Assembly (NCBI GenBank): GCA_016794525.1
Contig: JAEUJY010000108.1
Location: 1-64,000, forward strand
Length of the DNA stretch: 64,000 bases
DNA from: Myxococcales bacterium
GTDB taxonomy: Bacteria; Myxococcota_A; Polyangia; Haliangiales; Haliangiaceae
Direction: 5' to 3'
Shown here piece after piece: positions 15,801 through 25,822 of the stretch. Under the pieces are notes generated by a model, which was not told the origin of the DNA, did not search any database, and worked only from the letters and a program-made list of their open reading frames with translations. Made by a program: the position numbers and the translations under genes. The first letter of the stretch is position 1. Every line of letters starts with the position of its first letter.

Positions 15801-15829
15801 GGGTATGCGCCGGCTCCGGCGCCATACCC
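15801..15829. repeat. long hairpin at the distal end of the second hexamer array
   Basis: GGGTATG-CGCCGG pairs with CCGGCG-C-CATACCC around a CTC loop, 13 bp with one bulged base. It closes the array on the side away from ompA. No T-run follows on either strand. It could stabilise or end the ompA transcript. Confidence 0.6.
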
Positions 15830-16070
15830 GACTCCGGCTCCGGCTCCGACTCCGGTTCCGGTTCCGACTCCGGCTCCGGTTCCGACTCCGGCTCCGGCTC
15901 CGGCTCCGGCTCCGGTTCCGACTCCGGCTCCGGCACCGGCACCGGTTCCGGCTCCGACTCCGGTTCCGGCTCCGACTCCGACTCCGGCTCCGGCTCCGGC
16001 TCCCGTCCCCGATCCCGTCTCCGTCCCCGATCCCGATCCCGTCCCCGTCCCCGATCCCGTCTCCGTCCCT
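15811..16070 (-). repeat. second hexanucleotide array, downstream of ompA
   Basis: On the minus strand, starting right after the ompA stop, are units GGGACGG, GGGATC, GGGGAC and then GGAGCC, GGAGTC, GGAACC, GGTGCC. The units share the GGnnnC form with the array at 2154-2421 and have the same orientation relative to the upstream outer-membrane gene. No protein is supported in any frame. Confidence 0.9.
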
Positions 16071-22690: not shown

Positions 22691-23374
22691 TCACGCGCCG
22701 GCTTCGGCCAGCAGCTGCCCCGCGCTCTTCTCGAGCCACGCGCGGATGAACATGCAGAACTCGGCGCACTCCTCCTTGGTGTCGGGCGCCGGGAACAGCG
22801 TCATCGCGTTCATCGGGTTCTTGGCGACCAGCGCGTCGTAGATCGCCTTGGTCGCGGCGGCGGTCTTGGCGCCGAGGAAGCCGTCGACCGTCAGCGGCGC
22901 GAAGCCGACCACCTTGGCGAAGCGGTTGAGGTCGGCCTGCAGCGCCTTGAAGTCGTCGTGGACCGGGCCGGCGCCGTAGGCGATCGCGTCCTTGACGTTC
23001 CACTCCTTGCCGGTGCCCTTGTGGTAGCGGCGCAGGTCGGTCAGCCCCAGCGCCTTGCGCGCGGTGGTCTCGAGCCAGGTCCGCGACGCCATCGCGTTCT
23101 CGGCGGTCTCGGCGACCGTCGTCGGCGGCACCAGCGTCGCCGCCAGCATCGGGTTGGACGCGATCACGGCGAGGTGCACCGCCTTGAGCGCGGCCATCGT
23201 CTTGGGGCCGAGGACGCCGTCGACCTTGACCGCCTCGAACCCGACCTTGTCGGCGAAGTAGTTGAGGTCGGCCTGGATGCCGCGGAACACCTCGCGCGCG
23301 GCGCCGGCGCCGGTGATGGTGTCGCCGTGCTGCGTCCAGTCGTGGCCAGTCTCGAGCTTGCGGTCGTCGGACAT
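22691..23374 (-). CDS. tandem peptidoglycan-binding-like protein
   Basis: 227 residues made of two copies of about 95 residues. Each copy has IQADLNYFADKVGF / LQADLNRFAKVVGF, then VKVDGVLGPKTMAALKAV / LTVDGFLGAKTAAATKAI, and a helical half ending in WLETTARKAL / WLEKSAGQLL. The VDGxLGxKTxxA pattern is that of PG-binding type 1 modules. No signal peptide is visible, which is odd for a wall-binding protein. It has GGAGG 6 bases before the ATG and a TAGGCT box at 23399-23404, so it is leadered. It lies 94 bases behind the protease gene. Confidence 0.75.
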   Translation of the reverse strand: MSDDRKLETGHDWTQHGDTITGAGAAREVFRGIQADLNYFADKVGFEAVKVDGVLGPKTMAALKAVHLAVIASNPMLAATLVPPTTVAETAENAMASRTWLETTARKALGLTDLRRYHKGTGKEWNVKDAIAYGAGPVHDDFKALQADLNRFAKVVGFAPLTVDGFLGAKTAAATKAIYDALVAKNPMNAMTLFPAPDTKEECAEFCMFIRAWLEKSAGQLLAEAGA

Positions 23375-23468: not shown

Positions 23469-24581
23469 CTAGGAGCGCGCCTGCTCTTTCCAGAACGTCA
23501 GCTGCGTCGCCGGCGCCGGCTCGCAGCCGAAATCGGCGGCCAGCTGGTTGTCGAAGCGATCGGCCGAGGCCACGAACTTGGCCACCCAGCCGGCCAGCTC
23601 GTCGCGATCGCCGTGCGCGAAGACGTCGGTGATGTGCAGCGTCAGGTGCAGCCGGATGACGTTGTCGTCGAGGTCGAACGCGAACGGCGCGTGGTCGGCG
23701 GCCAGCAGGTAGCGGAACAGGTCGCCCAGGCGCTGCTTGCCCGGCTTGGCCAGCGGCGACGCGAAGCACAGGTGCTCCGAGCAGCAGCTCCAGATCTCGA
23801 TCGGCGCCGAGCCGCTGTAGAACGACCAGTTGGCCGCGCCGTGGCGGGCCAGCACCGGGTCGACGCCGGCGCCGGTGAGCGCGTCCTCGACGAAGCCGAC
23901 CAGCGGGTGCGGCGCCGGCGGATCGAAGTACGTGGCCAGCTCGAGGCTCTCGAGATCCGAGCCGCAGCTGGCACAGTAGCGCTCGGCGTGCTCGAGCAGC
24001 ACGTCGCACGCCGGGCACTGCACGCCGAACGCCGCGGTCTGGGCGTGGAAGCCGTCGATGAAGGTCTGGGCGTCGCCGCCGGGGATGCCGAAGCCGACGT
24101 TGTCGGCCGCGCGCAGCTTGCAGGTCGTGACCGCGACGATCCGGCGCGCGGCGTCGAGCATCGGCCCGCCGGAGTTGCCGGGGTTGATCGCCGCGTCGGT
24201 CTGGACGAAGTGCTGGCCGTCGAGCAGCTGGCTGGGGTTCGAGACCACGCCGTCGGTGATCGACAGCGGCAGGCCGACCGGGAAGCCGACGATGCTGATC
24301 GGCTGGTTGGGCTTGAGGTCGGCGGCGGCGTGGATCGCCAGGATCTCGCCGCCCGGCGCGCTGGCCAGCTCGACGATCGCCAGGTCGCGCTGCGGGTGGA
24401 TCCGGCGCACGGTGCCCAGCACGCGGCGGCGATCGCGCAGCTCGACCGCGACCTGGCGGTACGGCGCGACGACGTGGCAGTTGGTGACCAGCACCGTCGG
24501 GGCGATCAGGAAGCCCGAGCCGGTGCCGCCGCCGGTGAACACCTGGTACACGCCCAGGTCGGTGATGTCGGTGGCGCTCAT
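23469..24581 (-). CDS. trypsin-like serine protease with zinc ribbon and C-terminal chaperone-like module
   Basis: 370 residues, no signal peptide. The trypsin/HtrA-type domain (about 1-175) has H36 (LVTNCHVV), D66 (PQRDLAIVEL) and S137 (INPGNSGGPML). A zinc ribbon follows (C189/C192, C203/C206). The last ~160 residues resemble YbjN/CesT-like chaperone folds (LGDLFRYLLAADH, NVIRLHLTLHITDVF, ending ADRFDNQLAADFG at 340-352). The same module and closing motif occur in the overlapping upstream gene (24578-25822). With no export signal it should act in the cytoplasm, unlike DegP. The partner may regulate or target it. Confidence 0.85.
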   Translation of the reverse strand: MSATDITDLGVYQVFTGGGTGSGFLIAPTVLVTNCHVVAPYRQVAVELRDRRRVLGTVRRIHPQRDLAIVELASAPGGEILAIHAAADLKPNQPISIVGFPVGLPLSITDGVVSNPSQLLDGQHFVQTDAAINPGNSGGPMLDAARRIVAVTTCKLRAADNVGFGIPGGDAQTFIDGFHAQTAAFGVQCPACDVLLEHAERYCASCGSDLESLELATYFDPPAPHPLVGFVEDALTGAGVDPVLARHGAANWSFYSGSAPIEIWSCCSEHLCFASPLAKPGKQRLGDLFRYLLAADHAPFAFDLDDNVIRLHLTLHITDVFAHGDRDELAGWVAKFVASADRFDNQLAADFGCEPAPATQLTFWKEQARS

Positions 24582-25822
24582 GGCGTCTCCTCGTCGCGGC
24601 TGGAGTCGTCGATGGTCTCGTCGGTGGTGGCGGCCTCGAGCTCGGCGTCGTCGGCGTCGGGCTCGCCCGCCTCCCCGCCGCCCTCGTCGCCGGTGGCGTC
24701 GCCGCAGAACTGCTCGACCAGCCCCTTGCAGTGATCCCACAGCAGCGCCGCGGCGTCGCGCCACGGCTTGCCACCGGCCTTGGCCAGGCCGTCCATCAGC
24801 GCGGCGGCCACGTCCTCGGGCCACGCGTAGCGCGCCAGCAGGTAGGTGCAGCTCGAGATCAGCGCCAGCGCCGCCTCGAACGACTTGCCCTGGGTGCGGT
24901 ACTTGTCGATCGTCTCGATGTAGTCGCCGCTGCCGAAGTAGCCGGCCAGCGTCGACGGCTGGCCCTCGGCCAGCGGCGCCAGCGCGTAGCGGGCGTGGCC
25001 GAAGTTGGCGCGCAGCTCGGCGCTGGGGATGGCCTTCATCTCGCGGGCGGTGCGCGCCAGCGCGGCCTCGCGCTTGGCCGGATCGCCCTGGCCGTCGTTC
25101 CACACCGCGGCGCTCTCGGAGATCCGCGCCAGCAGGTAGCCGCAGATCGGCAGCACGAACTGCACGCGGAACAGCGCGATCGCCGACACCTCGTTGAGGA
25201 ACCAGGTCGAGCGCTTGCGCTGCGACTCCTTGAGCAGCTCCTCGACCTCGTCCCAGTGCATCCGCCACGCCGCCTCGGCGCGGGCCAGCTCGTCCTCGGA
25301 CAGCGGCTCGATCTCGGCCCGCTCGAGCGGCTGCGCGCCGAACTGCCCGACCAGCCAGTCGTCGCAGCGGTCGGCCTCGACCGGCATCCGCCGCAGCACC
25401 TCGAGCACCTTGGCCGGGTGCATGCGGGTCAGCTTGTCGCGGAACTCCAGGTACAAGTCGTCGCCGCGCAGCCGCGGCTGGTACAGCTGGCCCGAGCCGC
25501 TGATCGTCGTCAGCGCGTAGCGCAGCGCCGCCACCGCGTTGCCGGTCGGCGTCAGCCGCACCAGCGGCACGGTGATCGCCAGCTGGCCGTCCTCGACCCG
25601 CGCGGTGACCTGCGACGAGCCCTGCACGAACGTGAACGGCTGCGCCGCCAGATCGCCGACCGCGGCGCCGGGGAACAGGTGCGCGAACACCTTGTGGATG
25701 GCGTCGTCGACCTGGCCGTCGTCGGAGGCGGCCGACGCCGCCTCGAGCAAGGCGTAGTCGAGGTTGAGCGGCCGCAGCAGCCGCCGGACAGGGGCCGCGT
25801 ACGTGAGCGATGTGATCGCCAT
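24578..25822 (-). CDS. 414-residue partner of the trypsin-like protease, family unknown
   Basis: The ATG of the protease lies inside this gene's stop (ATGA). The N-terminal ~165 residues align by eye with the protease's C-terminal module: PFTFVQGSS, LAITVPLVRL, AALRYALTTI, DDLYLEFRDKLT and a closing ADRCDDWLVGQFG (150-162). The rest is helical (WRMHWDEVEELLKESQRKRS; ISSCTYLLARYAWPEDVAAA) with no membrane segment or catalytic motif, ending in an acidic tail of about 40 residues. I do not recognise the family. Shared modules suggest the two proteins bind each other or a common ligand. A box GACACT lies 9 bases before the start. Confidence 0.75.
   Translation of the reverse strand: MAITSLTYAAPVRRLLRPLNLDYALLEAASAASDDGQVDDAIHKVFAHLFPGAAVGDLAAQPFTFVQGSSQVTARVEDGQLAITVPLVRLTPTGNAVAALRYALTTISGSGQLYQPRLRGDDLYLEFRDKLTRMHPAKVLEVLRRMPVEADRCDDWLVGQFGAQPLERAEIEPLSEDELARAEAAWRMHWDEVEELLKESQRKRSTWFLNEVSAIALFRVQFVLPICGYLLARISESAAVWNDGQGDPAKREAALARTAREMKAIPSAELRANFGHARYALAPLAEGQPSTLAGYFGSGDYIETIDKYRTQGKSFEAALALISSCTYLLARYAWPEDVAAALMDGLAKAGGKPWRDAAALLWDHCKGLVEQFCGDATGDEGGGEAGEPDADDAELEAATTDETIDDSSRDEETP

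Follow-up and report, generated by a model that had tools for sequence, protein, structure and literature searches.

Overlapping genes for a trypsin-fold protease and a partner protein in Myxococcota carry related modules of predicted TY-chaperone type

A 64,000-nucleotide stretch from a Myxococcales bacterium of the Myxococcota (contig JAEUJY010000108.1 of assembly GCA_016794525.1; this whole stretch is called the window below) raises the question of what a trypsin-like protease with no recognisable export signal might do beside the protein encoded directly upstream of it, and whether the two are built on the same module. Both genes lie on the minus strand, the first for a 414-amino-acid partner and the second for a 370-amino-acid protease, and the stop codon of the one and the start codon of the other share an ATGA. 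This overlap had been pointed out in a sequence-only reading of the same DNA, and the open reading frame (ORF) coordinates confirm it; the start codons of both genes are also supported by relatives, in which the proteins start at nearly the same position, to within a few residues. The answer developed here is that protease and partner form a unit, and that profile comparison argues strongly for homology between a module at the C-terminus of the protease and one at the N-terminus of the partner. The features of the pair are listed here in the order of transcription.

24578..25822, minus strand: partner gene, 414 amino acids, with a predicted TY-chaperone module, a helical domain and an acidic tail (ORF, model, fold match)
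25340..25756, minus strand: predicted N-terminal TY-chaperone module of the partner, residues 23-161 (model, Foldseek, VIA, profile homology)
24704..25297, minus strand: predicted helical domain of the partner, residues 176-373, which holds the RKRS..FLNE segment (model, alignment)
24581..24697, minus strand: disordered acidic tail of the partner, residues 376-414 (predicted local distance difference test, pLDDT, <50; composition)
24578..24581, minus strand: ATGA overlap of partner stop and protease start (ORF coordinates)
23469..24581, minus strand: protease gene, 370 amino acids, with a Trypsin_2 trypsin-fold domain, a zinc ribbon and a probable TY-chaperone module (ORF, Pfam, model)
24042..24551, minus strand: trypsin-like protease domain, about residues 11-180, triad H36, D66, S137 (Pfam, alignment, structure matches)
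23961..24017, minus strand: zinc ribbon C189, C192, C203, C206 (Pfam match below cut-off, alignment)
23529..23906, minus strand: probable C-terminal TY-chaperone module of the protease, residues 226-351 (profile homology, model)

The linkage of the two genes was followed through two kinds of search. A scan of 84,980 genomes, one per species, with two patterns of the partner family returned ten partner loci, in Kofleriaceae, Polyangiaceae, Labilithrix, Myxococcales or Deltaproteobacteria; the protease comes after the partner in nine of them, one being truncated at the start of its contig; the tenth locus is a contig-edge fragment. A contig-edge fragment with about 50 partner residues and no protease (L010/L021, on G003:C524) was left out. 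Separate searches with the protease module and with the partner were also run on an even draw of 377 Myxococcota genomes, each scoring few candidates per genome (nine in one search, four in the other), such that misses are possible. Any match at E ≤0.001 was found in 12 genomes for the module and in 8 for the partner, and the strong matches of both (E <1e-78 for the module, E <1e-157 for the partner) fall in the same seven genomes, adjacent on one contig each time. Weak matches in G030, G043, G007, G010, G402, G416, G275:C161, G404:C327 and G109 stand outside these counts, and a duplicate match in G008 was counted once. The linkage of partner homologues to proteases expected from the sequence-only reading is therefore found, given that near-complete homologues precede the protease in every case found.

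Through weak matches, with the search kept within Myxococcota, two further types of the pair were reached, in which gene order and overlap are as in type A, the type of the window. In type B (G009 and G028, the two strong type B partner matches among 56 relatives) the partner consists of a zinc ribbon, a TY module and a helical domain, and the protease of a trypsin fold, a zinc ribbon and a TY module. Type C (G360, G400, G425, G426, G404, G275 and G429) has the layout of type B with a linker in the partner between module and helical domain. In 17 of 20 pairs the two genes overlap by 4 bases, in L017 by 8 and in L014 by 1, which makes 19 overlapping pairs; in L018, whose contig also appears as L059, a gap of 2 bases separates them. 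These counts depend on the start codons chosen by the analyst. The alignments leave out the pairs of G136 and G433 and that of type A in G275, and L053, L054 and L064-L073 entered the analysis only through the stretches retrieved from them.

Comparison of single sequences places the likeness of the two window modules near chance, so profiles are needed for the claim of a shared module. The local match of the tail motifs ADRFDNQLAADFG and ADRCDDWLVGQFG scores 44, a value that 11 of 1000 shuffles reach as well. For the global alignment of the two modules, 430 of 1000 shuffles do as well, and hhalign of the two single module sequences gives a probability of 2.4. When type A profiles of the protease module (11 rows) and the partner module (10 rows) are aligned by hhalign, the probability is 91.8 with an E-value of 7e-7 and a score of 46.3. 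As controls for this score, 100 column shuffles give a mean of 13.1 (standard deviation 2.5, maximum 20.0) and the reversed profile gives 13.7, and control profiles from the middle part of the partner and from the protease domain reach probabilities of 0.1 and 0.3. Protease and partner modules of types B and C match each other at a probability of 97.8 (E 9e-13). Across types, the B/C partner module matches the A partner module at 97.9, and the B/C protease module matches the A protease module at 97.0 and the A partner module at 93.4. A free-standing relative, L011 (the same gene in L031), scores above the Pfam cut-offs for TY-Chap1 (E 6e-8) and YbjN, and this protein matches all four module profiles at 79.5-93.9, with its two controls at ≤0.2. 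The window's own genome also holds TY-Chap1 matches over the cut-off at L032 (G000:C34:63157-63543), a free-standing protein of 162 amino acids, and at L033 (G000:C119:33337-33720).

The fold of the modules was predicted with AlphaFold2 models built with 10 rows each. The mean pLDDT is 83.8 for the partner model and 81.6 for the protease model, with five protease models spanning 54.6-81.6. In the partner, the predicted module runs through helices 23-34 and 38-49, strands 63-67, 70-77 and 80-89, helix 96-106, strands 115-119 and 122-130, and helix 136-161. In the protease, it runs through helices 226-237 and 242-245, strands 252-256, 259-267 and 270-279, helix 285-292, strands 301-305 and 308-316, and helices 317-322 and 326-351. 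The order of elements is identical in both predicted modules, the protease module having one additional short helix. The shared module proposed in the sequence-only reading is thus borne out by a profile score more than twice the shuffle maximum and by the same predicted order of elements; in each model, the FRY/LRY helix singled out there coincides with the second main helix, and the DDxxLxL pair with the last pair of strands.

Model, Foldseek and VIA agree on an alpha-beta3-alpha-beta2-alpha arrangement of the TY-chaperone fold for the partner module. The top Foldseek match in the PDB is the YbjN homologue 2plg (E 5e-4), the sole match at E ≤0.001, followed at E 0.002-0.1, mostly with probabilities of 0.99-1.00, by SigE, SycH, SchA, SycN/YscB, YbjN and others, with low-probability topoisomerase rows interspersed. 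In VIA, the first 36 rows (Z 9.0-12.5) are type III secretion system chaperones, YbjN-like proteins and a few small proteins that are uncharacterised or unrelated by name, and the first clearly unrelated row stands at Z 7.4. The best match is 1xkp_C (Z 12.5, root-mean-square deviation [rmsd] 2.5, 120 residues aligned), and YbjN of E. coli, 6vu7_A, follows at Z 9.7 (rmsd 3.2, 126 aligned). As modelled, the partner module is of the type III secretion chaperone/YbjN fold, the YbjN/CesT-like fold that had been suspected. In the PDB comparison of the protease, the match list is taken up by the catalytic domain, with no separate match for the module, whose assignment to the TY type is supported by profile homology and by the predicted order of elements.

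Sequence searches of the databases give less. For the partner, Pfam, NCBIfam and PADLOC return no match at E ≤1, and a PDB sequence search with it returns a single match at E 1.2. Among relatives, 4 of 11 partners match TY-Chap1 in Pfam at E ≤1 (best 0.0061), and a Pfam scan of 11 protease modules returns no chaperone family. The type C protease module of L081 has matches to CesT, TY-Chap1 and YbjN below the Pfam cut-offs, as has the partner of L083 to YbjN and TY-Chap1, and these provide an independent pointer to the TY-chaperone fold; the partners of L081, L079 and L082 show no chaperone match in Pfam.

The catalytic domain of the protease matches Trypsin_2 at E 2e-26 in Pfam, and the triad sits in the motifs TNCHVV, QRDLAI and GNSGGP; about 160 residues beyond the zinc ribbon are without a Pfam match. 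The nearest solved structures are DegQ and DegP (3pv5_A, Z 20.9, rmsd 2.5, 181 aligned), which with their kin make up the structure list and cover residues 1-222, and HhoA is the best sequence match, far below the NCBIfam cut-off. No PDZ family is found in the window protease at E ≤1 in Pfam. By Kyte-Doolittle hydropathy only, the type A and B proteins covered (13 proteases and 12 partners, the window pair included) show no hydrophobic, export-like N-terminal segment. The intact triad and the zinc ribbon claimed in the sequence-only reading are upheld by motif letters and alignment, and the claimed lack of an export signal by hydropathy in all 13 proteases, from which a cytoplasmic location is inferred. 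Some stretches of 19 residues farther inside are hydrophobic, with values of 1.61 at residue 95 of the window protease and 1.83 at residue 214 of the partner and, at the top of the range, 2.28 in the type B protease L008 (residue 172); the stretches of the window pair are not read as membrane spans because they form strand or helix inside folded domains of the models. Separately, ten close type A proteases share invariant C266, C267, H270 and C272 on strands of the module (window 23766-23786, residues 266-272), a possible metal or redox site, of which the distant type A protease L009 keeps the histidine, the cysteines being gone.

An alignment of 20 proteases (11 of type A, 2 of type B and 7 of type C) indicates that conservation of the zinc ribbon and module extends beyond catalysis. 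The four zinc-ribbon cysteines are kept in 20 of 20 rows and the triad in 13, namely in 10 of the 11 type A rows, the window among them, in both type B rows and in one of the seven type C rows. The triad is missing from L020, a single metagenome contig in which serine has become alanine, and from six type C rows, of which four belong to one genus. Placed on the tree, the loss of the triad needs at least two changes, and the seven relatives look like pseudoproteases, six in one clade and one elsewhere. The genome G275 holds both a type A pair (L060) and a triad-less type C pair (L082). Protease and partner trees agree on the split between type A and types B plus C and on the triad-less clade, with type A poorly resolved in both. 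Protease and partner distances correlate with r 0.90 over 9 type A pairs and 0.95 over 19 pairs, a correlation for much of which shared species history accounts.

Directly upstream of all six triad-less type C pairs lies a NuoH-like gene. The copy at L079 (8834-10792) encodes an NADHdh match, an extra N-terminal region and a PDZ domain, and tblastn with it matches 6 of 22 loci (L018 and L059, one contig, both counted), which are exactly the six triad-less type C loci, that of the query included. Kin of the L079 protein are found at L080 and L082-L085.

The second half of the partner is less constant than its module. The RKRS..FLNE segment of the helical domain is invariant in ten close rows, and the distant L009 retains only the lysine of RKRS. 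The last 45 residues hold 14-32 acidic residues in 10 of 10 close rows, the window included, and 10 in L009; type B and C partners end without an acidic tail, as judged by eye. At the level of a guess, the tail and the RKRS..FLNE segment may bind each other or regulate access. Between types B and C the helical domains are related, at a probability of 90.6; a test for a common origin with that of type A found none, at probabilities of 0.9 and 0.2 against B and C. JetABC, YgiF, MnmE and CCR6 were set aside as kin of the helical domain, given that their VIA rows, at Z ≤7.4, score no higher than helical arrangements commonly do. The partner linkers of L079, L080, L082, L083, L084 and L085 contain one to three copies of a DDLPPILAP-type stretch (AIPAILSP in L083), possibly a short binding motif, which was not found in L081, the triad-intact type C partner.

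The reading preferred here, with confidence about evenly balanced between right and wrong, is that the genes encode a translationally coupled, two-protein cytoplasmic protease complex of the HtrA type, in which a chaperone domain replaces the PDZ domain, pairs with that of the partner and captures clients. The constant core would be a trypsin fold, zinc ribbon and TY module on the protease and a TY module on the partner, encoded by overlapping genes. The protease would be an HtrA/Deg-type trypsin fold with the zinc ribbon and TY module standing in the place of PDZ. The two TY modules would pair as class I chaperones dimerise, thereby holding the partner beside the catalytic domain, and the paired modules would bind an extended client segment and either present the client to the protease or use it to switch the protease on. 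Speaking for this reading are the homology of the modules, the predicted fold, the constant linkage and gene order, the overlap of the genes in nearly all pairs, the retention of the zinc ribbon where the triad is lost, and the agreement of trees and distances described above. Pairing, capture and gating are suggested by analogy, given that DR1245 is a dimer (PMC3575483) and that SycN-YscB is a heterodimeric chaperone by the title of 1xkp; class I chaperones act by dimerising and binding peptides, and YbjN proteins are presumed to do likewise (PMC3575483, PMC5398634).

Several results weigh against this reading. No protein of the window reaches a Pfam match to a chaperone family (TY-Chap1, YbjN, CesT). 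The B/C partner module matches the A protease module weakly (probability 25.4), and the TY-Chap1 protein L032 matches one of the four profiles well, at 75.3, and the rest at ≤6.9. The trees of protease and partner place L081 differently within types B and C. The second half of the partner varies by lineage, because no relationship is detected between the helical domain of type A and those of types B/C, and the protease module could equally homodimerise. Lastly, proteolysis is not the common output of the architecture, because the triad is unrecognisable in 7 of 20 proteases.

The triad-less versions imply that the complex can be of use even where it does not cleave, and they sustain a second explanation, that of a regulatory scaffold. 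Here the trypsin fold would act mainly as a peptide-binding part or switch, and the pair as an assembly or regulatory chaperone for which cleavage is dispensable or a single event. The separate losses of the triad, with zinc ribbon and module staying, speak for it, as do the six of six triad-less type C pairs found directly downstream of a NuoH-like gene, as if serving a membrane protein. It is nonetheless held to be unlikely, given that the triad is intact in the window, in nearly all of type A, in both type B rows and in one of type C, that the loss in type A comes from one metagenome contig, and that four of the six losses in type C come from one genus. Alternatively, the partner might be a dedicated substrate or inhibitor, its tail or helical domain plugging the protease or being cleaved to release an active fragment. 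The long, disordered acidic tail of all ten close rows, the conserved basic RKRS segment and the DDLPPILAP-like linker stretches of six of the seven type C partners fit such a role, but L009 has no comparable tail (10 acidic residues of 45), partners of types B and C end tail-less and yet the pair is kept, and the linker stretches belong to the triad-less pairs; this is held to be the least probable of the explanations considered.

A toxin-antitoxin-like conflict system, in which the protease is a toxic effector and the upstream partner a chaperone or antitoxin that restrains it until an invader signal arrives, is improbable as well, although some of its expected traits are present. The genes are two and overlapping, the spread is patchy (four of the seven genomes of the window's genus hold the partner, one in pieces, some of the genomes being incomplete), type A partners diverge 1.44 times as much as their proteases, and trypsin-like effectors or peptidases with adjacent partner genes are known in conflict systems (PMC7159879). 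Flanks are mostly unlike between relatives. Apart from the pair, the gene clusters of the flanks are shared by two of the compared loci at most, and several are shared by two; the flank genes were called by a simple script based on codon positions, which makes these calls noisy. A PADLOC scan of ten flanking genes from seven relatives left eight unmatched, one matching many kinase models and one matching a phage-defence candidate; the latter, L014 3872-5005 on the minus strand, is a strong PDC-S02 match about 1 kb from a type A pair and the sole such neighbour of the ten. Against the explanation, neither viral contigs nor plasmids yielded the partner, in a search sensitive to close relatives only, and the ten window neighbours scanned with Pfam are ordinary (TonB, ExbD, ExbB, TruD, a ChaN-like protein, a peptidoglycan-binding-type protein, baeRF/Host_attach, hemerythrin, OmpA and TatD), with no MoxR, vWA, VMAP or type III secretion genes among them. 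The site is moreover shared with the nearest relative, L012, where TatD and hemerythrin DNA flanks the pair on the corresponding side. The remark in the sequence-only reading that connected such proteases with conflict systems is therefore unsupported, and a defence role is not supported beyond the patchy spread and the one neighbour.

Returning to the complex with chaperone-type capture, a wider proposal can be put forward tentatively, with doubt outweighing confidence. The pair may represent an unnamed Myxococcota family of cytoplasmic chaperone-proteases in which client capture by a heterodimer of the type III secretion chaperone-type domains has taken the place of PDZ, and in which the protease half has become a pseudoprotease at least twice, once as the pair was captured by a NuoH-like gene; depending on lineage, it would serve proteolysis or cleavage-free assembly or quality control. 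If the preferred reading is true, client capture of the chaperone type is coupled to a cytoplasmic protease that works without ATP. Nature offers both intact and triad-less versions of the one architecture, so that the role of the protease domain can be tested directly, and two unannotated stretches of about 140 residues gain a fold and a partner.

Some neighbouring features were observed along the way. Directly downstream of the pair, at window 22691-23374 on the minus strand, lies the gene for the peptidoglycan-binding-type protein, with two repeats that are 46% identical and an N-terminus that is not export-like by eye. This gene and the beta-CASP gene upstream were considered as parts of the system and rejected, given that tblastn found no match to either in 12 loci; a beta-CASP fragment match lies near the G008 pair on the opposite strand. 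Kinase-like genes lie beside or near the pair in three type A loci (L013 3566-5014, L016 8357-11434 and L058 5935-7392). Those of L013 and L016 share one cluster, that of L013 matches kinase models, and that of L058 was judged by eye. Protein kinases of this sort are common in myxobacteria, and the kinase-like neighbours may for that reason be due to chance. At about window 15805-16000 on the plus strand, alternating Arg-Leu/Arg-Phe repeats in one frame are probably a tandem repeat of a short unit. Rfam and tRNA scans of the window gave no match.

Each part of the pair is known from other systems, and the combination of protease with TY module, and the pair itself, were not found described in the open-licence literature, most subscription papers lying outside that scope. 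The VMAP/Trypco/EAD systems resemble the pair in joining a trypsin-like peptidase to an adjoining partner gene (PMC7159879). The shared domain here is instead a TY module, YbjN and CesT being absent from that paper, and for the partner, in the place that Trypco1, Trypco2 or EAD takes there, Pfam returns no family at E ≤1; the ten window neighbours give no sign of a known VMAP/Trypco system. With the HtrA/Deg proteases (DegP, DegQ, DegS, HhoA) the window protease has in common a trypsin-fold domain with an H-D-S triad. It is not an HtrA in the strict sense, given that no PDZ domain and, by hydropathy, no export signal is seen, that a zinc ribbon and a probable TY module stand instead, and that a second gene is constant. 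With the TY-chaperones (SycN-YscB, CesT, SicP, YbjN/AmyR/DR1245 and TY-Chap1) the likeness is in the predicted fold of the partner module. The first account of TY-Chap1 cited here dates from 2022 and concerns ADP-ribosyl-glycohydrolase systems (PMC9503650, section 3.8); the word trypsin is absent from that paper. Most known proteins of the TY-chaperone fold are small, stand alone and assist in secretion and stress, whereas here the fold appears to be built as a module into two larger proteins, one of them a protease and the other its partner.

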